Source: Myxococcales bacterium (GTDB lineage Bacteria > Myxococcota_A > UBA796 > GCA-2862545). From it: a stretch of 64,000 bases of DNA. The notes under the pieces are model-generated. The model saw only the letters and a program-made list of their open reading frames with translations, had not been told where the DNA came from and did not search any database. Shown here one piece after another: positions 2,341 through 19,193 of this stretch. Both the position numbers and the translations under genes were made by a program. Location of the stretch: NCBI GenBank assembly GCA_019634415.1, contig JAHQVJ010000093.1:1-64000 (forward strand), written 5' to 3'. How positions within the stretch are numbered: position 1 is the stretch's first letter; each line of letters starts with the position of its first letter.

Positions 2341-4905
2341 CAGCTCGGCCCAGCTGGGTCCGGCCTTGCAGCTGACCTGCAGCGGCACCCGGAGCGCGAA
2401 CGCCCGCCGCATGGCGTCGGACGCGATGCGCGCCGCATCCAGCAGGGCGGCCCTGGGCACCTCGAACAACACCTCGTCGTGGATCTGCACCAGGGGCTCT
2501 GCTGGACACCCTGCCTCGCGCAGCGCCCGATCGGCGTGGAGCAGACCCCGCCGCGTGACGTCGGCCACCGAGCCCTCGTGGGTCCCACGCTTGGCGAGGC
2601 GCTCGGCGTAGCCGCGGTCCTTGGGCTCCAGTGACGCGAGATCCCCCACCCGCCAGCGTCGCCCCGCGAGGGTGGGCACGAAGCCGTGCTCGCGTGCGTG
2701 CGCCAGCTGCGCCTGCTGAAAGGCGCGCACCCCCGAGTAGCGCTCGTAGAACCGCGCGATGCGACGCTTGGCCTCGGCGGGCGTGACCCCGAGCTGCAGC
2801 GCCAGCGCGCTGGGCCCCTGACCTGCGAAGGTCGCGAAGTTCACCACCTTGCCCATCTGTCGCTCGTCGGCGGTGACGTCGGCCGCTGGCTTGTCGAGCA
2901 CGGCTGCCGCAGTGGCGCGGTGGATGTCCGCCCCCTCCGACAGCGGCGTGACGAGGGCCAGATCCTCGGTGAGGTGGGCGAGCACGTACAGGCCCAGCTG
3001 CTCGTAGTCCACCGACAGCAGCACAGAGCCCTCGGGCGCGCGGAAGGCGTGGCGGATCCGGGCCAGCTCAGGCGTGCGCCCCGGCACGCGGCCGAGATCG
3101 GGATGGCTGTTGATCAGCCGCCCTGAGAAGGAGCGCGCGGGATGGATGGTGGAGCGAACGCGTCCGTCGTCGTCCACCGCTCGCGTCAGTGCCGTGATCC
3201 AGCTGTCCTGCAGACGACGCAGCTGACGCCAGCGGATCACCAGCGGCACGATGGGATGGGCGGCCGCCAGTCGCTGAAGCACGTGGGTGGCCGTGCTCCA
3301 GCCGGTCTTGGTGCGGTGGATCACCTCCAGGCCGAGGTCCTCGAACAGCACCGATCCCAGCTGCTTGGTGGAGTTGATGGCGAAGGACTTCCCGGCGAGG
3401 CGGAAGATGTCTGCTTCCAGCTCCTGGCGGATGGCGGCGAAGTCGACGCTGGAGCGCGCCAGGTCGTCGGTGTCCACCGGCATGCCCTTGAGCTCCATGC
3501 GCACAAGCGTCTCCGACAGCTGCAGAGCCTCGCTGATCAGGGCATCGTCGTCGGGTCCGAGCAGGGGCCACAGCTGCCCGGCCGCATCGGCGAGGTGGCA
3601 CGCATAGGCGCCCGCTCGCGCGACGGGGAGGTCGGCGAAGCCCACTCGCTTCGCCCCTCGCCCGAGCAGCCCGTCCACGGGCTGCAGCGCGCGGTGCAGG
3701 CACACGCGGGCCACCCGGTGCAGGTCGTGGGGCGCCATGCCGCTGGGATCGGCCAGGTGCGACGCCAGCGCCGAGTCCCCCACGACGCCCCGCAGCTCGA
3801 CCTGCCGCCTGGCCAGGGCCACGGCGGCGGCCTTGGTGTCGTGCCCCACCTTGGCAGCCTCGGCATCTCGAAGCCAGGGAGCCAGGGCCTGAAGACACGC
3901 CTCCCCCGACGCTCCGAGCAGCGGCACGTACACCGCCTCGCCAGGCGCCCGGCTGAAGGCCAGCCCCACCAGCTCGCCCCGCACCGGCGACGGCTCCTCG
4001 GTGAGCACCTGCAGGCTCACGGGGCCCGTGCCGAGCTGGGCCAAGACCTGCCTCACCGCCTCGGGGGTATCGGCCACCGCGTAGCGGGTGTCGGCACGCG
4101 CCTCGGCCACGCCGGTGGCCGCCAGCATCGAGAAGAACCCCAGGCGGCGGTACGTCGCGTTGAGGGCCTCCGCCTCGGGCGCTCGGAAGGCGCAGTCCGA
4201 CAGCGGCACCGGCAGCGCGAGGTCGCGGCGGAGGGTGGCCCGCTGCAGCTGGTCGCGGGCCACCGGCAGCGCCGCTCGCAGGGCGCGACCCACCCGACCC
4301 TCGACGCACTCCGGATCCGCCAGCGCCGCGGTCAGCGAGCCGTGGGCCTGCAGCAGCGACACCGCCCCCTTCTTGCCGATGCCTGGCACGCCCTCGAGGA
4401 TCCCCTCCTCCCCCACCAGCGCCAGCCAGTCGCCGCACTGCGCGGGGGCCACGCCATAGCGCTTGCGCAGCGCCTCCGGCGTGTAGCGAACGTCCTTGTG
4501 GCCCTCGTACCACCAGACCTGATCGCTCACGAGCGGTGCGAGGCGCTTGTCGCTGCCCACCACCATGCAGTCGCCGTCGGACAGCGCCGCCGTGACGTAG
4601 CTGGCCACCACGTGCAGCGGCGCCTCCGCGCGCACCACGCACAGGCCGTGCTCCGCGAGCAGCTCCGACAGCGCTGCGCTCTGGCTGCGGAGGTCGGCTG
4701 GCCAGTCCGCGGGCGGCTCGGAAGCATCCACCACGGCCACCGCGCGCTCCGGCTGCTTGAACGCGAGCGCTCGTCGAATCGTGCGCACGGTGCCGAAGAG
4801 CGCGTTCGTGGGGAGGCCCTGCGGGGACGCCCGTCCGGGCGCCACCGACAGGTAGCTTCGGGCGAGCACGTCGGTGGCGTGCACGACCAGCGTCCGCGAT
4901 GCCAT
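2308..4905 (-). CDS. DNA polymerase I-like (family A) protein with degenerate nuclease domains
   Basis: Family A motifs: SGRLINSHPDLGRVPGR, LLSVDYEQLGLYVLAHL (A), RQMGKVVNFATFAGQGPSAL (B), VQIHDEVLFEV (C). N-terminal 5'-nuclease-like region with helix-hairpin-helix GVPGIGKKGA. Confidence 0.85.
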   Translation of the reverse strand: MASRTLVVHATDVLARSYLSVAPGRASPQGLPTNALFGTVRTIRRALAFKQPERAVAVVDASEPPADWPADLRSQSAALSELLAEHGLCVVRAEAPLHVVASYVTAALSDGDCMVVGSDKRLAPLVSDQVWWYEGHKDVRYTPEALRKRYGVAPAQCGDWLALVGEEGILEGVPGIGKKGAVSLLQAHGSLTAALADPECVEGRVGRALRAALPVARDQLQRATLRRDLALPVPLSDCAFRAPEAEALNATYRRLGFFSMLAATGVAEARADTRYAVADTPEAVRQVLAQLGTGPVSLQVLTEEPSPVRGELVGLAFSRAPGEAVYVPLLGASGEACLQALAPWLRDAEAAKVGHDTKAAAVALARRQVELRGVVGDSALASHLADPSGMAPHDLHRVARVCLHRALQPVDGLLGRGAKRVGFADLPVARAGAYACHLADAAGQLWPLLGPDDDALISEALQLSETLVRMELKGMPVDTDDLARSSVDFAAIRQELEADIFRLAGKSFAINSTKQLGSVLFEDLGLEVIHRTKTGWSTATHVLQRLAAAHPIVPLVIRWRQLRRLQDSWITALTRAVDDDGRVRSTIHPARSFSGRLINSHPDLGRVPGRTPELARIRHAFRAPEGSVLLSVDYEQLGLYVLAHLTEDLALVTPLSEGADIHRATAAAVLDKPAADVTADERQMGKVVNFATFAGQGPSALALQLGVTPAEAKRRIARFYERYSGVRAFQQAQLAHAREHGFVPTLAGRRWRVGDLASLEPKDRGYAERLAKRGTHEGSVADVTRRGLLHADRALREAGCPAEPLVQIHDEVLFEVPRAALLDAARIASDAMRRAFALRVPLQVSCKAGPSWAELSPLEPVQGAD

Positions 4906-4961
4906 GGCTCATGCTCCCGCCCGAGCTTACATTCCCAGCATCGGCACGGGGACGTTCCACG

Positions 4962-7487
4962 ATGAGTTCCAGGAAGCCCAGCAGGTCGCGATCGAGGTCG
5001 AAGCGATCCGGCGGCTCCCGCGAGGGTCCGCGCGTCACACAGCGCGCGCGCCGCCGCGATCCGCGCACCGTGAGCCGGCGGACCACCGCCGTGCAGGATC
5101 CGCCCCCCGAGTCGGGGATGTGGGTGGCTGCCGAGCTGCTCACCTGGGTGCTGGCCATCGCCGCGGGGCTCACCATCACCGCAGGCTTGCTGTGGATGCG
5201 AGCGCGCAGCGACGTCGCCGCCTACCTGGCCGCGCCCCCGCGCACCGTGGAGAGCACCGTCTGGTCGGCGCCCATGGTGGTCCGCAAGGGCATGCCCGCC
5301 AACGTCGGCGTGCTCGAGGGCGATCTGCTCGCTGCCGGCTACGAGCGGGTGGAGTCCGTGTCCGACAGCCAGGACGCCACCGGCGACGGCGTGGGCCTGT
5401 TCTCGCTGCACGACGGCACCTTCGACATCTGGACGTCCCTGTCGGAGCCCGTGCCGGGCGTGCTGGTGGACGAGGGCCGCACCACCCTTACCGTGAAGAG
5501 CGGCAAGGTGGCCAAGCTGTCGCGTGAGCGCGTCACGCTGCCGCCCACCGTGCTCGGCGTGGTCACCGACCTCGACACCAAGCGGGAGCGCGTCGATCTG
5601 TCGAGCATGTCCACCTGGGTGGAGCCCGCGCTGCTGTCCATGGAGGACGTGCGCTTCCGCCAACACAACGGCGTGGACCCCATCGGGATCCTGCGCGCCA
5701 TCTTCACCAACGCCACCACCAACGAGCTCGCCGGGGGCTCCACTCTCACCCAGCAGCTCGCCAAGAACCTGTTCCTGTCGAAGGACAGGACCATTCGGCG
5801 CAAGGTCCGGGAGGTCTTCTTCGCGGCCGCTCTCGAGTCCCACCTCACCAAGGACCAGCTGCTCGAGCTGTACCTGCGCGAGGTGTACCTGGGGCAGATG
5901 GGCGGCCTGCCGCTGCACGGCGTGGAGCAGGCGTCGCTGGCCTGGTTCGGCAAGGGCGCGAGCCGCCTCGACCTGCACGAGGCCGCACTCATCGTGGGTG
6001 TGATCCCCGCGCCCAACACCTACTCCCCCATCCGCCACGAGCAGGCAGCCCTGGAGCGCCGGAACCTCGTGCTGCAGCGCATGCACGATCTGGGCGAGAT
6101 CACCGAACAGGACCTGGAGCGGGCCAAGGCCAAGCCCATCAAGCTGTCGGGCCTGCCGCCGAGCAAGGTACGCCGTGCACCCTATGCGGTGGACGCAGCC
6201 ATCGAGCGCGTGGAGGGTGAGCTTGGCCAAGGGGCCCTGTCGCGCGGAGTGCACCTGCACACCACCATCCACCCCCTGCTGCAGCGCGCCGCCGAGGAGG
6301 CCGTGGCCGAGGGAATGGCGGAGCTCGACGAGGAGTATCCGAAGGCCGCTGGAGCCCAGGTGGCGCTGGTGGCGGTACGCATCGAGGACGGCGCAGTGGT
6401 GGCCATGGTGGGCGGCCGCAGCTACGCAGACAGCGCCTTCAACCGCGCGGTGGATGCCAAGCGGCAGGTGGGCTCCACCATCAAGCCGCTCACCCTGGTG
6501 AAGGCGCTCTACGACGGCGTCGTCACCCCTTCCACCCGCCTGTCCGACGAGCCCATGACCATGGATCTGGGCACCGAGCTGTGGTCTCCCAAGAACTACG
6601 ACGGCAAGTTCGAGGGCGAGGTCAGCCTGCGCCGCACCATCGAGGCGAGCCGCAACATCCCGGCGGTTCACCTCGCCGAGCACGTGGGCATGGCCCGGCT
6701 CCAGCGCTTCTACCAGGCCACGGGCCTGTCGGAGTCCACGGGGCTGCCGAGCGCCGCGCTCGGCTCCTTCGCGGCCTCTCCCCTCGAGATGGCGGGCGCC
6801 TACACCCTGTTCGGCCATGGCGTGGCCCACCGGCCCGAGGTGGTGCAGGAGGTGCGCACGGTACAAGGCGATCCGCTGCTCACCATCGAGCCCCTGCGGC
6901 GTCAGGTGGTCGACGATCGCGCCGCCACCCAGGCCATGGACGTCCTGCGTGGCGTGATCACGTCGGGTACGGGCGCGAGGGCTCGTCGCTACGGGATCGA
7001 GGGTCACGTGGGCGGCAAGACGGGCACCACCGACGAATACCGCGACGCCTGGTTCGTGGGGCTGACCCCCGAGCTGGCCGTGGCCGTGTGGGTGGGCCGA
7101 GACCGAGGCACCCTGGGTCTGTCGGGCAGCCGCGGTGCGCTGCCCACCTGGGCGCGCTTCGTGGAGGCCTCGGGCACCCAGCACATCCCTGCCCCGTCGG
7201 TCCCGGGCGGGCTGCAGAGCGTGGAGCTGTGCGCCACCTCCGGGCTGCCCGCGCGCGATGTGTGCGACGAGACGGTGCAGGAGCTGTTCTCGGTGGGCTC
7301 CGTGCCCGACGACAAGTGCGACGAGCACGGCGGACCCGGCGTGCAGCTGGGCCGGCTGTTCGGGGGCCTGTTCAAGAAGCGCAAGAAGCGCGACGAGGAC
7401 GGCGAGGTCATCGGCGAAGGCGAGGACCGCACGCAGAAGCGGCGGCGTCGGCGACCGCGCCCGGAGCCTGCGCCCCCACCGGAGTGA
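4962..7487 (+). CDS. Class A penicillin-binding protein (PBP1B-like: glycosyltransferase 51 + transpeptidase)
   Basis: GT51 motifs EDVRFRQHNGVD and GGSTLTQQLAKNLFLS; transpeptidase SxxK (RQVGSTIKPL), SxN (SRNIP), KTG (GKTGTTDEYRDAWFVG). UB2H-like region before GT51. Start chosen at ATG 4962 to avoid overlap with the divergent gene. Confidence 0.92.
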   Translation: MSSRKPSRSRSRSKRSGGSREGPRVTQRARRRDPRTVSRRTTAVQDPPPESGMWVAAELLTWVLAIAAGLTITAGLLWMRARSDVAAYLAAPPRTVESTVWSAPMVVRKGMPANVGVLEGDLLAAGYERVESVSDSQDATGDGVGLFSLHDGTFDIWTSLSEPVPGVLVDEGRTTLTVKSGKVAKLSRERVTLPPTVLGVVTDLDTKRERVDLSSMSTWVEPALLSMEDVRFRQHNGVDPIGILRAIFTNATTNELAGGSTLTQQLAKNLFLSKDRTIRRKVREVFFAAALESHLTKDQLLELYLREVYLGQMGGLPLHGVEQASLAWFGKGASRLDLHEAALIVGVIPAPNTYSPIRHEQAALERRNLVLQRMHDLGEITEQDLERAKAKPIKLSGLPPSKVRRAPYAVDAAIERVEGELGQGALSRGVHLHTTIHPLLQRAAEEAVAEGMAELDEEYPKAAGAQVALVAVRIEDGAVVAMVGGRSYADSAFNRAVDAKRQVGSTIKPLTLVKALYDGVVTPSTRLSDEPMTMDLGTELWSPKNYDGKFEGEVSLRRTIEASRNIPAVHLAEHVGMARLQRFYQATGLSESTGLPSAALGSFAASPLEMAGAYTLFGHGVAHRPEVVQEVRTVQGDPLLTIEPLRRQVVDDRAATQAMDVLRGVITSGTGARARRYGIEGHVGGKTGTTDEYRDAWFVGLTPELAVAVWVGRDRGTLGLSGSRGALPTWARFVEASGTQHIPAPSVPGGLQSVELCATSGLPARDVCDETVQELFSVGSVPDDKCDEHGGPGVQLGRLFGGLFKKRKKRDEDGEVIGEGEDRTQKRRRRRPRPEPAPPPE

Positions 7488-7542
7488 GCTGTAGCGATCC
7501 GCTGGTCTCTCCTGCATAGTGGTCACACCAACGGGAGGCACC

Positions 7543-9288
7543 ATGACTGGCTGGGCATGGATCTCCGTGGGCCTGCTGGGCTGCACGGACCACACAGAGT
7601 CGACATCCACCACACTCGATCCCCTCGTGCTCGATCCAGCGAGCACGACCGCGGCGGGCGGCGCCGTCACGATGCTGGCAGACGGCCGCACGGCGGCTGT
7701 GAGCGACACGCGCTCGAGCCGAGTCTTGCTGGTGGACACCGAGCAGCCGGACGTGATCATGTCGACTCAGCTGCAGCGCCATGCTCAGCCGGGTCAGCTG
7801 GTGGAGGATCACGAAGGTCGACTCTGGGTGACCCTGCGGCGAGGCGGTCGCGTGTTGGTGCTCGAGGGAGGCACCCTACGGGTCGTCCGGGAGCTCGCGC
7901 CGTGCCCGCAGCCTCGCGGCCTGGACGTCGACAGAGACGGGAGCGTGTGGCTGGCGTGTGCGAGCGGAGAGCTCGTGCACATGGACGTCACGGGAGTCCT
8001 CTCGTCCACCTTGTTGGACGTCGATCTGCACGACGTCGTCGTGGACCAACTCGAGGATCGCGTGTGGGTGAGCCGGCGAACGTCCGCCGAGGTGCTGTCC
8101 TACCAGCCCTCGGCCCCCCAGGACGTAGCGCGCTTCGAGCTCGAGGCGCTCGACACAGCAACCGCCACGTTCCTGCCGAACGTCGCGTGGCGAATGATCG
8201 CTCACGAAGAGGGCGGCATCCTGCTGTTGCACCAGCGAGCGAGCACGGCAGATCTGATCATCACACTCCCCAGCGGGTACTACTCGGGGGACTGCTTCGG
8301 CATCGTTCACGCCGCCATCTCCCGCGTCACGCCCGATGGCGACGTCGAGACCTCTGGGGCCCTCGACCACCTGCCCGTGCCGACGGACCTGGTGCGGCAT
8401 CCTGATGGCGATCTGGTCATCGCCGTGGCAGGCACGAACCCCGGAGGCCTGGTGAACCCGGCATCGGTGGTCCGGCTGGCGCCCGGCTCGCTGCGCAGCG
8501 ACCCGGAGGGCTGTGTCCAGACCGGTCGTACCGATGGGTTCACGAGCACCTATGACATCGTCAGCAGCGTGGCGGTTGCTGCGTCCGGTCGGATCGTGAG
8601 CGTGTCCGCGGACCCCTTCGTGGTGCGGGTCGCAGGCGAGCCCGTGATCGAGGAGCTCGACGGCAGCTACGGCTACGAGGTGTTCCATCGCGCGACGGTG
8701 TTCGGCGACGGCAACGTCGCCTGCGCGTCGTGCCACCCCGATGGCCACGAAGACGGGCACACCTGGTCGTTCGAAGACATCGGCGAGCGACGCACGCAGG
8801 ATCTGGCAGGCGGACTCTCCCAGTCGGCGCCCTTCCACTGGCAGGGAGAGCTGGCCGATCTCGGTGAGCTGATGAACCAGGTCTACACCGATCGAATGGG
8901 CGGCCTCGAGCAGGATGCGTTGCAGATCTCCGCGCTGCAGGAGTGGCTCGACGACCTGCCCACACGGTCCGTCACACCGCAGGGTAGCCAGTCGCAGATC
9001 GACTGGGGTCGCGCACTGTTCCACTCCGACGAGGCGGGGTGCATCGAGTGCCACAACGGACCCACCTACAGCGATGGTACGCGTCGCAACGTGGGTACTG
9101 GCGGCAGGTTCTCGGTCCCCCACCTGCTGGGTGTGGCCAACCGCCTACCGCTCATGCACGACGGCTGCGCCGACGACCTGATGGCACGGTTCAGGCGTTC
9201 CTGTGGCGGGGCAGACCATGGCGCGAGCGACCAGGAGCTGTCGCGCCAGGAGAGGCTGGCTCTGATCGCGTTCCTCGAGACGCTGTAG
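7543..9288 (+). CDS. Putative lipoprotein: beta-propeller-like N-terminus fused to di-heme cytochrome c peroxidase/MauG-like domain
   Basis: Lipobox-like LLGC; propeller-like repeats; two CxxCH motifs (CASCH, CIECH); late motif TGGRFSVPHLLGVANRLPLMHDG typical of the di-heme peroxidase family. Confidence 0.75.
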   Translation: MTGWAWISVGLLGCTDHTESTSTTLDPLVLDPASTTAAGGAVTMLADGRTAAVSDTRSSRVLLVDTEQPDVIMSTQLQRHAQPGQLVEDHEGRLWVTLRRGGRVLVLEGGTLRVVRELAPCPQPRGLDVDRDGSVWLACASGELVHMDVTGVLSSTLLDVDLHDVVVDQLEDRVWVSRRTSAEVLSYQPSAPQDVARFELEALDTATATFLPNVAWRMIAHEEGGILLLHQRASTADLIITLPSGYYSGDCFGIVHAAISRVTPDGDVETSGALDHLPVPTDLVRHPDGDLVIAVAGTNPGGLVNPASVVRLAPGSLRSDPEGCVQTGRTDGFTSTYDIVSSVAVAASGRIVSVSADPFVVRVAGEPVIEELDGSYGYEVFHRATVFGDGNVACASCHPDGHEDGHTWSFEDIGERRTQDLAGGLSQSAPFHWQGELADLGELMNQVYTDRMGGLEQDALQISALQEWLDDLPTRSVTPQGSQSQIDWGRALFHSDEAGCIECHNGPTYSDGTRRNVGTGGRFSVPHLLGVANRLPLMHDGCADDLMARFRRSCGGADHGASDQELSRQERLALIAFLETL

Positions 9289-10978: not shown

Positions 10979-12691
10979 TCACAGCGTCGCGGTGATCCCG
11001 AGTAGCAGGTCTCCCTCGGGGGATGGACGTTGGGCGAGGTTGAGATAGGGGCGGCCGTCCGAGCCGATGCCGAACGGGATCACGTTGATGTATGCGTCGA
11101 AGGACACGTGATCGAAGGCGTGCCACTGGAGCAGGGGCGTCCGACGTCCGCCACGCCGCCCTGGCGACAACGTGACGAACGCGCCCGACGAGGGAGCCCA
11201 TGGCCCCACGACCACGCCCACGTTCAGGGTGAGCCGGTCCGCCCAGGTCTTGCTCCACACCAGCTGGGCTTCCATGGAGAACCGACCAAAGGGAGGCAGG
11301 TTGGGGCCAACGGGATTCTGGCCCGACTCCGCGTAGTAGGGAAGCGCAGCGGACAGACCGATCAGGAGTCGAGCGTGCTCCCCGATCCGAGCGCGGTGGT
11401 CCATGCCCACGCGCAGGCCGAGCGTCCACCGGGTGTATCGAAAGTCGCGATGGATCCCGACCGAGTCCACCCCGCCCCACGGCATCCAGGCAGCACGGTC
11501 CTTCGGGCCTGGCTGGCGCACGGTGACCACGGCGGGGGTGGCGACCTGCACGCTGCGGTTGACGCTGTAGGCCACCGAGCCATCGAGACGCCAGGCGGAC
11601 CCCAGCCCCAACACCCAGAGGCGGCCACGGACGTCGCCGTGGCGGGCAGGCAGGATGTCGTGGGTGCTCGCGATCCGCAAGCTACGCCCCTTGGGAGCCA
11701 GCTCGTCGACCGCACGCAGCTGTAGGCCCGACTCCGCCACCGACACACTCTCGCCCGCAGCCAGCTCGATGCTCGTGGACAGCACACCCTGGTCGGTGCT
11801 GCGCCGGATCACGTAGCCCCCTGGAGGCAGCGCCAAGCGCACCTCCTGCTGGCCAGGGGGCAGCTCGAGCAGCACCACCCCCGACTCCACGTGCAGCACC
11901 TGCAGCGGCCCGTCCGTCTGCGTCACCGTCAGCGTGGTGGGCGCCGTCTGCAGCTTGCTGAGGACCACGTCCCGCTGCCCCCGCAGCTGCAGGTGGAAGC
12001 TCGGCGTCTGCTTGGTGTCCGCGAAGACCGCCGCATCGCGCGCCGTGCGCCGCTTGGCGTAGTCGAAGGCCTCCGACAGCGTGACCTCCCCCTCCGCGGA
12101 GTGGTCCGCAGCCCCGCGCATCCCGACGACGAGGTGGTGGGTGAACAGCGAGCCGTGCACCAGCTCCGCTTCGTGGGCCGACTCGACACCCGAGGTCGAC
12201 GCGATCCAAGCGGCCCCCTCGCTGTCCAGCGGATCGGGCAGCTCGAAGGGCACCGCCTCGGGCACCAGTCCCTTGGTGCCCGTCCAGGTGCCCCCGCGAC
12301 ACGCATCCACGATGCCCAGCTGCAAGCGAGCCCCGGTGGCGTCCATGGCCTGTCGCAGCGAGGACACGGTCAGCGGACGCCCTCCTGGGTACAGCGCATC
12401 GGCCTCGGCGTGGCCCGAGTAGTAGAACAGCAGCGTGGTGTCCGGCGTGACCGGCACGTCCTGCAGCAGCTCCAGCACCCGCTCGGGTCGAGGGTCCCGC
12501 AGTACGTGCACGGCATCGTCGGAGAACCCTCCGACCTCTCGCAAGGCAGCCGCGACGGAATCGACGTCGCTGTGGGCGTAGCGGAGCCGACGGGCGCCGG
12601 GGATGGCGCTGTTGGATCCCACCAGGACGGCCACACGGTCCGCAGCAGGCTGGGCCGCCGCCCCCAAAGACAACCAACATCCAAGCATCAT
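10979..12691 (-). CDS. Exported caspase-like (peptidase C14) protein with C-terminal beta-rich, possibly outer-membrane, domain
   Basis: Caspase p20-like: RVAVLVGSN, YAHSDVDSVAAALRE, His motif LLFYYSGH, Cys motif LGIVDACRGG. Short hydrophobic N-terminus MMLGCWLSLGAAAQ. ATG overlaps the upstream stop. Confidence 0.85.
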   Translation of the reverse strand: MMLGCWLSLGAAAQPAADRVAVLVGSNSAIPGARRLRYAHSDVDSVAAALREVGGFSDDAVHVLRDPRPERVLELLQDVPVTPDTTLLFYYSGHAEADALYPGGRPLTVSSLRQAMDATGARLQLGIVDACRGGTWTGTKGLVPEAVPFELPDPLDSEGAAWIASTSGVESAHEAELVHGSLFTHHLVVGMRGAADHSAEGEVTLSEAFDYAKRRTARDAAVFADTKQTPSFHLQLRGQRDVVLSKLQTAPTTLTVTQTDGPLQVLHVESGVVLLELPPGQQEVRLALPPGGYVIRRSTDQGVLSTSIELAAGESVSVAESGLQLRAVDELAPKGRSLRIASTHDILPARHGDVRGRLWVLGLGSAWRLDGSVAYSVNRSVQVATPAVVTVRQPGPKDRAAWMPWGGVDSVGIHRDFRYTRWTLGLRVGMDHRARIGEHARLLIGLSAALPYYAESGQNPVGPNLPPFGRFSMEAQLVWSKTWADRLTLNVGVVVGPWAPSSGAFVTLSPGRRGGRRTPLLQWHAFDHVSFDAYINVIPFGIGSDGRPYLNLAQRPSPEGDLLLGITATL

Positions 12692-13266
12692 GGGGCGACT
12701 TCCTTGTCGATGAGCAACGTGGTGGACCAGCTGGGCCGGTCCGGGTGGGAAAGGGTGATCTCGATGCGCTCGGGACCCGGCGCGTGGTCGAGCCGCCAGC
12801 TCGCGGGCAGGTCCTCGGGGCCGTGCAGCTGGCCCGTGTAGAGGACGTCGCGCCCGGTGCGCACCTCCACGTGGTCGAACCCGGCGGGATCCACACGAAG
12901 GCGGATCGAGTCGCCCGCAGACAGCGGCCTGCCATCGAAGGCGTACACCCGCTGGTCGCTCCGCACCCACACCTCCACGTGCGGGTGGCCCTTGGTGGCC
13001 AGCCAGGGGTCCTCGGCCACGGGTGACCACAGGATCGCGGCGAGCGCCGCACCGACCGCCACGAGAGGCAGCACCAAGGCCGGCCAGCGCCACCAGCGCC
13101 GCTCGGCACGCTGCATCAGGCCAAGCGGAGCTGGCCCAGGATCGCGGCGGATCGTACCGACGTAGGCCCGACACTGATCGCACTGGTGCACGTGGGCCTC
13201 CACCTCGGCGGTGGAGTCGCCCAGGGCGTGTCGATCGAGGGCTAGGAACGATGGATGTGGGGTCAC
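12688..13266 (-). CDS. zf-HC2-type anti-sigma factor, single TM, with C-terminal extracytoplasmic domain
   Basis: GTG start overlaps the sigma-factor TGA. HxxxCxxC motif (HVHQCDQC); TM PALVLPLVAVGAALAAILW. Confidence 0.75.
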   Translation of the reverse strand: MTPHPSFLALDRHALGDSTAEVEAHVHQCDQCRAYVGTIRRDPGPAPLGLMQRAERRWWRWPALVLPLVAVGAALAAILWSPVAEDPWLATKGHPHVEVWVRSDQRVYAFDGRPLSAGDSIRLRVDPAGFDHVEVRTGRDVLYTGQLHGPEDLPASWRLDHAPGPERIEITLSHPDRPSWSTTLLIDKEVAP

Positions 13267-13715
13267 ACGACCTCCTCGAGCTGACGGTCGAAGGCGGCGA
13301 GGGTGCGGCGCACGTGGCGGTCGCTGATGCCCAGCAGCTCGGCCACCTCGGCCTGGGTCAGGCCGTCCACTCGATGCAGCAGCACCACCTCGAGCTGCTT
13401 GGGGGGCACGCGCCGCACCAGCTCGTCGAGCGCGATGCGACCGGGTCCTGCCGGTAGGGTGACGGGGCTGACCGCGGCTGCCGCCTGCTGGGCCAAGGTA
13501 CGACGACGGATCTGGTCGATGGACAGGCGCGTGGCCGTGCGGTGGATCCAGGCGGTGACGGTGGCCACGGAGCCCTGCACGGGTCCGCGACGCCACAGCC
13601 GCAGCAACGTCTCTTGGGCCACCTCCTCGGCCTCGCCGGAGCGGCCGAGGATGCGGCTGCACTTCTCGCGGATCAGCGGGAAGAAGCGTCGGTAGACGGG
13701 GTCCAGTCCAGCCAC
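13263..13715 (-). CDS. ECF-type RNA polymerase sigma factor
   Basis: Region 2 (GRSGEAEEVAQETLLRLWRR...AWIHRTATRLSIDQIRRR) and region 4 (VPPKQLEVVLLHRVDGLTQAEVAELLGISDRHVRRTL). Confidence 0.9.
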   Translation of the reverse strand: MAGLDPVYRRFFPLIREKCSRILGRSGEAEEVAQETLLRLWRRGPVQGSVATVTAWIHRTATRLSIDQIRRRTLAQQAAAAVSPVTLPAGPGRIALDELVRRVPPKQLEVVLLHRVDGLTQAEVAELLGISDRHVRRTLAAFDRQLEEVV

Positions 13716-17207: not shown

Positions 17208-19193
17208 GTGGACGCCGAGATGCACCGGCGATGCGCGAACACCATCAAGGGGCTCGCGATGGACGCGGTGCAAGCCGCCAACAGCGGCCACCCGGGCATG
17301 CCCATGGGCATGGCAGACGCAGCCATCGTGCTGTGGACCCAGTTCCTGCGATTCGATCCGGAAGCCCCCGACTGGCCCGATCGCGACCGCTTCGTGCTGT
17401 CGGCGGGCCACGGCTCCATGCTGCTGTACGCCCTGTTGCACCTGGCGGGCTACGACCTGAGCCTCGACGACATCAAGGCGTTCCGGCAGTGGGGAAGCCG
17501 CACACCGGGCCACCCGGAGGTGGGAGAGACGCCGGGCGTGGAGACCACCACCGGCCCTCTGGGGCAGGGCTTCGCCAACGCCGTGGGGATGGCCATCGCC
17601 GAGCGCACCCTGCGTGACACCTTCGGCGCCGAGCTGTGCGATCACCGCATCTTCGGGATCTGCAGCGACGGGGACCTGATGGAGGGGATCTCCAGCGAGG
17701 CAGCCTCGCTGGCAGGCCACCTGGGGCTCGGCCGCATCGTCATGCTGTACGACGACAACAAGATCAGCATCGACGGCTCCACCGAGCTCACCTTCACCGA
17801 GGACGTTCCCGGCCGCATGCGGGCCATGGGCTGGCACGTGCTGCAGGTGGACGGCCACGATCCGGCCCAGATCGCCCAGGCCATCGAGGCGGCCATCGCT
17901 CATGCCGAGCAGCCCTCGCTGGTGTGCTGCAAGACCGTGATCGGTCAGGGCTCGCCTTCCTTCGAGGGCACCTCCAAGACTCACGGCGCCCCCCTGGGCC
18001 ACGACGAGGTGCGCGCCACGAAGACCCGGCTCGGTATGGATCCCGACGCCACCTTCGCCGTTCCCGCCGATGTCTCGACGGCCTTCCGGAGCGCCGCGGC
18101 GGCCGAGCTGCGCGAGTCCTGGGAGGCCCGCGTGGCGGATCACCCACGCGGCTCCGAGTTCCGCGCCTGGCTCGAGCCCGACTGGTCCGCTCTGGCCGAT
18201 CGTGTGGAGTGGCCGAGCTTCGAAGCCGGCACGTCGCTGGCCACCCGCAAGGCCTCGGCAGCGTGCCTCAAGGCCATCACCGCCGCGGTCCCCTTCCTGA
18301 TCGGGGGCTCCGCCGATCTCGCGGGCTCGAACGGCACGGCCATCGGCGCCCAGGCCTTGTCGTCCGCTGGCTTCGCCGGCGCCAACACGGTGCACTTCGG
18401 CGTGCGCGAGCACGCCATGGGCGCCATCTGCAACGGCATGGCGCTGCACGGCGGCGTGCGGCCCTACAACGCCACCTTCCTGGCCTTCCACGACTACCAG
18501 CGACCGGCGGTTCGGCTGTCGGGCCTGATGCACCAGCCCGTGCTCTACATCTACACCCACGACTCGGTGTTCCTGGGCGAGGACGGCCCCACCCACCAGC
18601 CCATCGCCACGCTGCTGGCGCTGCGTGCCCTTCCCGGCGTGGAGGTGTGGCGCCCCGCCGATGCCACCGAGACCGCCGTGGCCTGGCGCGAGTCGTTGCT
18701 GCGCGTGCAGGGTCCGTCGGCGCTCATCCTCACGCGGCAGGGCTTGCCCGTGCTGGACCGCGAGGCGCTGGCACCGTCGAGCGCTGTGCGCCGCGGGGGC
18801 TACGTGCTCTCGGAGGCCCCGACCACCGAAGACGGCAGTGCGGACGAGCCACAGGTGGTCTTGATCGGGACCGGCTCCGAGGTCGCCACCTGCATGGCTG
18901 CTCAGCAGCTGCTGGCCGACTCGGGTGTGGCCGCGCGGGTGGTGTCGATGCCCTGCCGTGAGCGCTTCGCACGCGAGGACGCGGTCTACCGAGACGCAGT
19001 GTGCCCTCCGGGCGTGCCGCGGGTGAGCGTGGAGGCAGCCGTCACCTTGGGGTGGCATCGCTGGATCGGCGACGGCGGAGTGGCGCTCGGCATCGACCAC
19101 TACGGTGTCTCCGCCCCCGCCAAGGTGATCGCCGAGCGGCTCGGGTTCACCCCCGAGCGTGTGGCCGACGCCGTGAGGAGCCTGCTTTCGTGA
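17208..19193 (+). CDS. tkt: Transketolase
   Basis: [37 protein letters not shown]-like [29 protein letters not shown] start. Confidence 0.95.

Follow-up and report, generated by a model that had tools for sequence, protein, structure and literature searches.

What does a bacterial caspase do when it is exported from the cytoplasm and encoded beside a sigma factor and its membrane-bound inhibitor? Bacterial caspases are usually discussed as cell-death proteins, and we know of no natural function for most of them. The question arises from a 64,000-nucleotide stretch of a Myxococcales genome (positions 1 to 64,000 of contig JAHQVJ010000093.1, assembly GCA_019634415.1), referred to here as the window. 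At positions 10979-13715, on the minus strand, an extracytoplasmic function (ECF) sigma factor, a membrane anti-sigma factor and an exported caspase form one operon joined by 4-nucleotide (nt) overlaps. We consider it probable that the caspase acts as site-1 protease on its partner anti-sigma factor, feeding an autoregulated envelope-to-gene signalling cassette. All coordinates of operon features below are on the minus strand.

Results

Relatives of this trio were taken from the same family and order, from the phylum and from a collection with names. The named ones come from Myxococcota metagenome-assembled genomes (MAGs), Anaeromyxobacter, Corallococcus, Hyalangium, Fibrobacter and one record titled Acidobacteria. 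With duplicates removed, 165 caspases could be evaluated, while 14 others end at contig edges and lie outside this set. An ECF sigma gene is found upstream of 151 and downstream of 9; one of the rest is the second caspase of a trio operon, and four have no sigma gene. In all, 160/165 share an operon-like stretch with a sigma gene, in Myxococcota, Fibrobacter and others. An earlier note on this DNA, made from the sequence alone, had read the sigma factor, the membrane anti-sigma and the exported caspase as one unit. The conserved trio strongly supports that reading, the three-gene order does recur in relatives, and the trio is a conserved family of operons, more than chance. The genome of the window (9.8 Mb, 254 contigs) has 30 Peptidase_C14 matches, about eleven of which belong to the trio family. 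Nine of these 11 have a same-strand ECF sigma gene no more than 1.1 kb upstream; of the other two, one is a variant with the sigma gene downstream and one sits at a contig end. No ECF sigma gene was found close upstream of any of the other caspases in this genome, about 19 in number.

The genes are tightly packed in the relatives as well. Sigma and anti-sigma genes overlap by exactly 4 nt in 116/148 distinct trios. Between anti-sigma and caspase genes the value is -4 for 82 trios and -1 for another 22 (104/148 together). These counts are somewhat generous because the start-choice rule favoured such overlaps, notably -4. Linkage even survives re-ordering. In the variant with a downstream sigma gene, the order is caspase, secreted protein, sigma, anti-sigma (loci L062, L063, L073, L106, L121, L125, L193, L194 and L197). 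The secreted protein of this variant contains cysteines in an FDxWC...CxW...TWH motif and could be a sensor. More distant caspases, reached via their anti-sigmas, again lie in trios. One locus (L072) has two tandem caspases behind a single sigma/anti-sigma pair, and the records titled Klebsiella pneumoniae and Bifidobacterium breve (L217, L219 and L222) look like mislabelled environmental MAGs of the group.

The evidence that links caspase and anti-sigma most directly is a short motif, (R)x[K/R]↓G, where the arrow marks the candidate cut. Loop L2, after the catalytic Cys, is the place of caspase self-processing. In this loop, nine residues past the Cys, the P3 residue is Arg in 134/148 relatives, P1 is Lys or Arg in 147/148 and P1' is Gly in 146/148. 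The anti-sigma linker has the same arrangement, with P3 Arg in 118/148, P1 Lys or Arg in 143/148 and P1' Gly in 142-144/148. Its median distance from the membrane helix, on the outer side, is 17 residues. In the window proteins it reads GTK↓G in the caspase loop, ATK↓G for the anti-sigma linker and, where the C-terminal domain of the caspase joins on, APK↓G. The first, K140-G141 (TWTGTK↓GLVP, 12269..12274), is a candidate self-processing site picked out by conservation, in a loop modelled with a predicted local distance difference test score (pLDDT) of <50. The second, K92-G93 (...WLATK↓GHPH, 12988..12993), lies 11 residues outside the membrane and is, again by conservation, a candidate site for cleavage by the caspase. 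The third [K/R]-G, K334-G335 (11687..11692), is conserved too: the junction glycine in 80/82 and Lys or Arg in 47/52 alignable relatives.

Other anti-sigmas of related genomes largely lack this motif. There are 110 RxKG matches in 38,223 anti-sigma residues of the trios but 3 in 23,835 sigma residues. The comparison set was 20 membrane-helix anti-sigmas from outside the trios, drawn from related genomes, in which the 45 residues past the helix were considered; [K/R]G is present in 136/146 trio anti-sigmas versus 2/20 of these, and Rx[K/R]G in 106/146 versus 0/20. Among the alignable non-trio caspases of the window's genome, none has K/R-G at the loop position. Re-ordered loci keep the motif in caspase and anti-sigma alike. 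In distant trios it persists in the anti-sigmas, and most of these trios have it in both proteins, with six caspases carrying it in a longer loop; where both proteins have the motif, Lys pairs with Lys and Arg with Arg in 6/6. In the one case checked (L171), it falls outside the DUF4384 match of the ectodomain. Judged from sequence comparison, then, a near-invariant candidate cleavage motif is common to the caspase loop and the anti-sigma linker, and it is new here.

Of the two roles that the earlier note had offered for the caspase, output of the switch or protease that releases the anti-sigma, the shared motif favours the second and makes a purely output role less likely. If the caspase were output only, some other signal would free the sigma factor to make more caspase, a simple autoregulated effector unit aimed at proteins of the envelope or of foreign origin, whether in the periplasm or beyond it. 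The caspase is always within the operon, and in part of the family the promoter of that operon looks autoregulated. There are up to about 11 copies per genome, and the C-terminal domains differ strongly among paralogs, as with effectors of differing targets. However, such a unit would not lead one to expect a common (R)x[K/R]↓G in the anti-sigma linker and the caspase loop, nor the partial correlation of 0.46 between anti-sigma ectodomain and caspase distances, the largest among all pairs. These distance correlations are weak evidence, as linked inheritance already predicts them. We regard an exclusively output role as unlikely, although it is the strongest of the rival explanations. Being part of an operon with a promoter that looks autoregulated in some relatives, the caspase is also an output, besides its proposed role as a protease.

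The ectodomain could also bind the caspase as an inhibitor or scaffold through a substrate-mimic loop, with K-G as the docking site and a joint release of caspase and sigma factor; cleavage would then not be the signal. A conserved K-G fits a substrate-like inhibitory loop, and the correlated distances of ectodomain and caspase would fit as well. However, the motif is found 10-44 residues from the membrane, next to a variable linker, which is the customary layout of a site-1 cleavage, and DUF4384, matched by 21/72 ectodomains, is not known as an inhibitor fold. Docking in place of cleavage is improbable in our view.

The window caspase (570 residues, ATG start, 10979..12691) scores 39.9 bits against Pfam Peptidase_C14 (cut-off 21.4), its sole Pfam match, and its caspase fold is recognized by AlphaFold and Foldseek. 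Against the EACC1-associated caspase model NF047832 it reaches 57.5 bits, below the curated cut-off of 140. The caspase domain (residues 19-235, 11987..12637) is modelled with pLDDT mostly >90 outside loop 140-153, and Foldseek matches the model to MALT1, metazoan caspases, legumain and metacaspases. The catalytic residues are H94 in YYSGH (12410-12412) and C131 in DACRGG (12299-12301), in agreement with the SGH and DACRGG motifs picked out in the earlier note. H94, D129 and C131 are identical in 148/148 relatives. D129 of the DxC, two residues ahead of C131, is presumably the S1 acid of metacaspases and MALT1, and with this acid invariant a basic P1 residue is expected. The caspase is predicted to be catalytically active and to cut after Arg or Lys.

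The caspase family is exported. A signal peptide-like start is present in nearly all relatives, often with an AxA site, and 134/148 caspases have no further membrane helix in the mature protein. The window copy has the short export signal previously noted, at residues about 1-14 (12650..12691), where relatives have their AxA signal peptides; its sequence is MMLGCWLSLGAAAQPA. This signal is short and uncharged and, by itself, weak, so the export of the window copy rests partly on its relatives. The catalytic domain would sit in the periplasm.

Beyond the caspase domain, the window protein has 335 more residues, ending in LLLGITATL; the beta-rich C-terminus of more than 300 residues expected from the sequence is made up of a sandwich and about ten strands. 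The sandwich (residues 243-326, 11714..11965; AlphaFold strands at pLDDT 83-96) is called PEGA-like by analogy, as it has no Pfam match. The C-terminal domain (residues 360-570, 10982..11614) is a probable outer-membrane beta-barrel, as judged by about ten long AlphaFold strands at low confidence and by its hydrophobicity pattern. It was modelled from one 45-sequence alignment, and the model is poor. The C-terminal domain of one caspase subgroup (A4), modelled alone from 23 sequences, gave a clearer picture, with eight long strands, a pLDDT of 90.5 and a predicted template modelling score (pTM) of 0.81; Foldseek placed OmpA best (E 3e-8) and also matched Ail, OmpX and NspA. On the strength of this model, one caspase subgroup ends in what is predicted to be an 8-stranded OmpA-like outer-membrane barrel, which is new here. 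The window C-terminus is likely a barrel as well, because its alternating hydrophobicity equals that of the modelled subgroup barrel, a strength reached by 6/1000 shuffles; the caspase and sandwich regions have no such alternation. Phe, the customary final residue of outer-membrane barrels, is the last residue in 70/148 caspases. Modelling of this domain, which the earlier note had proposed, thus yielded an OmpA-like barrel in the subgroup and a ten-stranded, low-confidence model for the window copy. The possibility that the protein's ends are cytoplasmic does not apply, since the family is exported and the C-terminus is a barrel where it could be modelled well. Other C-termini occur in the family: one trio caspase (L078) has MORN-like repeats in place of the barrel, and four caspases (L066, L256, L272 and L278) have long LNVAxGDVxGxQLGLxN-type repeats.

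The two upstream genes have the features of a sigma switch. The sigma factor (150 residues, GTG start, 13263..13715) matches Pfam Sigma70_r2 (3e-13) and Sigma70_r4_2 (2e-13), both above cut-off, and TIGR02937 at 64.5 bits (cut-off 42.9). Region 3 stays under its Pfam cut-off, and the presence of regions 2 and 4 only fits an ECF (group IV) sigma factor. The anti-sigma (192 residues, GTG start, 12688..13266) is recognized by its position, its zinc motif, its one helix and its alignment with 147 trio anti-sigmas. As the earlier note had described, it combines HxxxCxxC with one transmembrane helix and an extracytoplasmic domain: HVHQCDQC at residues 25-32 (13171..13194), a single helix at residues about 63-81 (13024..13080; hydropathy 2.27 over 19 residues) and a 110-residue ectodomain. 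It scores 14.3 bits against Pfam zf-HC2, under the cut-off of 22.2; this family is matched by 26/72 relatives' anti-sigmas (E up to 0.01), and HxxxCxxC is kept in only 60/148 trio anti-sigmas. The genome of the window also encodes S2P-family proteases (PF02163, above cut-off). At one locus (L319, G006:C116), the sigma/anti-sigma pair is followed by a protein-kinase-like zinc-ribbon gene instead of a caspase, and the anti-sigma keeps RTKG.

The junctions between the genes can be read directly. The anti-sigma stop overlaps the caspase start in ATGA (12688-12691; caspase ATG over anti-sigma TGA), exactly as first described. At the other junction the overlap is real, but the final codon of the sigma gene, the GTG directly before its TGA, had been taken for the anti-sigma start. 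The true start is a second GTG, displaced by two bases from the first, and its overlap with the sigma TGA stop is GTGA (13263..13266). By eye, Shine-Dalgarno-like stretches (GGGAG, GGAGG and AAGGAAG) precede the three starts, and thus independent initiation of each gene is also possible. Outside the operon, on the plus strand, genes that by eye have the appearance of a class A penicillin-binding protein (4899-7487), a beta-propeller/cytochrome-type secreted protein (7519-9288) and a transketolase (17208-19193) were seen.

To what genes would a freed sigma factor turn? Two bipartite motifs came out of an unbiased count of gapped word pairs in the regions ahead of the sigma genes: class I (GGTGACA-N15-GGTGTY) at 26 loci and class II (YTTTC-N17-GGGTC) at 13, versus at most 5 in shuffles. 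They lie mostly 30-70 nt ahead of the matched sigma start. Standard GGAAC/CGTC-type ECF motifs were not enriched upstream of the sigma genes. The class I motif is common to Fibrobacter and Myxococcaceae. Genome searches with it gave 24 sites in 8 genomes and 16 sites in 13 Fibrobacter-type genomes, and the reversed-pattern control gave 0 sites. Past these sites lie trio operons, genes for TonB-receptor plug proteins and small lipoproteins and, in Hyalangium, a MotA/ExbB gene. For a few sites no convincing target gene was seen. In Corallococcus, the apparent targets are a TonB/receptor protein, a cytochrome c peroxidase-like lipoprotein, a beta-lactamase-family lipoprotein and an alpha/beta hydrolase. 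In six Fibrobacter genomes the motif stands ahead of DUF3450-type genes (L332, L356, L362, L364, L367 and L370), three of them matched by Pfam and three alike by eye, which suggests control of a TonB/ExbB-type system in Fibrobacter. Some trios, then, share a predicted bipartite promoter with TonB/ExbB, DUF3450 and lipoprotein genes, which is new here. In species with the class I motif, the sites fit an autoregulated envelope response; the window's own copy, which has neither motif upstream of its sigma gene, may be autoregulated too.

We rate as very improbable a module for death, lysis or phage defence, with a caspase that kills the cell once the sigma factor is released. Caspase ancestry and the speculation on M. 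xanthus autolysis in Asplund-Samuelsson et al. 2012 (PMC3501461) would favour it. Against it, the caspase is exported rather than cytoplasmic, the promoter sites in relatives stand ahead of TonB/ExbB, DUF3450, receptor and lipoprotein genes, the plasmid collection gave no match, and the cassette is conserved in an orderly way across families and phyla. The earlier suggestion of defence or developmental lysis found no support here, as the relatives' promoter sites point to envelope and TonB/ExbB genes, and it is for want of such support that we rate lysis and defence low.

Discussion

We propose the following working of the trio, with the caspase as the protease that releases its own anti-sigma. 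The anti-sigma would hold the ECF sigma factor at the membrane. In most of the family the exported caspase would probably be anchored in the outer membrane via its C-terminal beta-barrel, which would place the catalytic domain in the periplasm beside the anti-sigma ectodomain. A trigger would lead the caspase to self-process at the (R)x[K/R]↓G of loop L2 and to cut the same motif in the anti-sigma, in the linker close to the outer face of the inner membrane, at K92↓G93 in the window protein. General intramembrane and cytosolic proteases would degrade the anti-sigma remainder and so free the sigma factor; the S2P-family proteases of the genome could complete this degradation. The free sigma factor would transcribe its own operon and, in relatives, envelope genes too.

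Several observations weigh against this proposal. The proteolytic step is deduced from the motif, and [K/R]-G could be structural in both proteins. In three distant caspases (L327, L329 and L069) no [K/R]-G is seen in the displayed loop stretch, and two anti-sigmas (L319 and L322) keep the motif with no family caspase in the fetched stretch. Paired P1 and P3 changes agree more often than they differ and appear strong in raw counts (Fisher 1e-7 and 2e-4) but are not significant after tree correction, and they are therefore not used as proof. No close ortholog of the window trio was found; the collection scan with the window caspase alone gave no relatives, whereas the scan with a close subgroup found them. 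The C-terminus of the window caspase has no sequence relatives among the fetched loci, and the confidence of its model is low. Upstream of the window's sigma gene there is neither the class I nor the class II motif, and class I has no exact match in its genome.

On this reading a substrate and a cleavage site can be predicted for the whole caspase family, and for some relatives a regulon as well. Should the proposal hold, it would also offer a non-lethal, ancestral-type role for the caspase fold. A broader statement, to which we give even chances, is that these proteins form a large and ancient caspase class of outer-membrane-anchored site-1 proteases of ECF anti-sigmas, which cut both themselves and the anti-sigma at (R)x[K/R]↓G, run up to about ten parallel switches per genome and serve signalling, not killing.

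Operons of this kind have been seen before. In M. xanthus, 4/5 metacaspases lie in predicted operons with sigma-70 genes, and such operons also occur in Anaeromyxobacter, Haliangium, Sorangium, Ralstonia and Fibrobacter (PMC3501461). From that passage, these very probably belong to the same operon family as the window trio. The passage itself mentions no anti-sigma, export, barrel, shared motif, promoter or mechanism. No description of the cassette as a signalling system was found in the literature searched, which did not extend to subscription literature.

Among known systems, the ECF54 sigma group has CHAT, subtilase and carboxypeptidase neighbours and is proposed to act without an anti-sigma (PMC8999054). 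It resembles the trio in pairing an ECF sigma factor with caspase-like neighbours, and differs in that these are CHAT proteins and not an exported Peptidase_C14. A closer functional likeness is offered by Csx29 of type III-E CRISPR, which cuts the sigma inhibitor Csx30, with the sigma factor proposed to autoregulate its locus (PMC10028731). There a caspase-clan protease can control an ECF sigma factor by cutting its inhibitor, as is proposed here for the trio. However, Csx29 is a cytoplasmic, RNA-activated TPR-CHAT protease from a CRISPR locus, with no signal peptide, membrane anti-sigma or barrel; the window caspase, with Peptidase_C14 as its only Pfam match, lacks the TPR-CHAT architecture of CASP/Csx29. 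The layout of DegS/RseA/RseP is similar in another way, with a single-pass anti-sigma that has a periplasmic domain, a link to the outer membrane and S2P-family proteases, and in our model the working is the same. The difference is the site-1 protease, which in the trio would be an operon-encoded, barrel-anchored caspase and not a PDZ serine protease. If this is true, the caspase would be the receptor-protease of a bacterial transmembrane sigma switch, in parallel to both DegS/RseA and Csx29.

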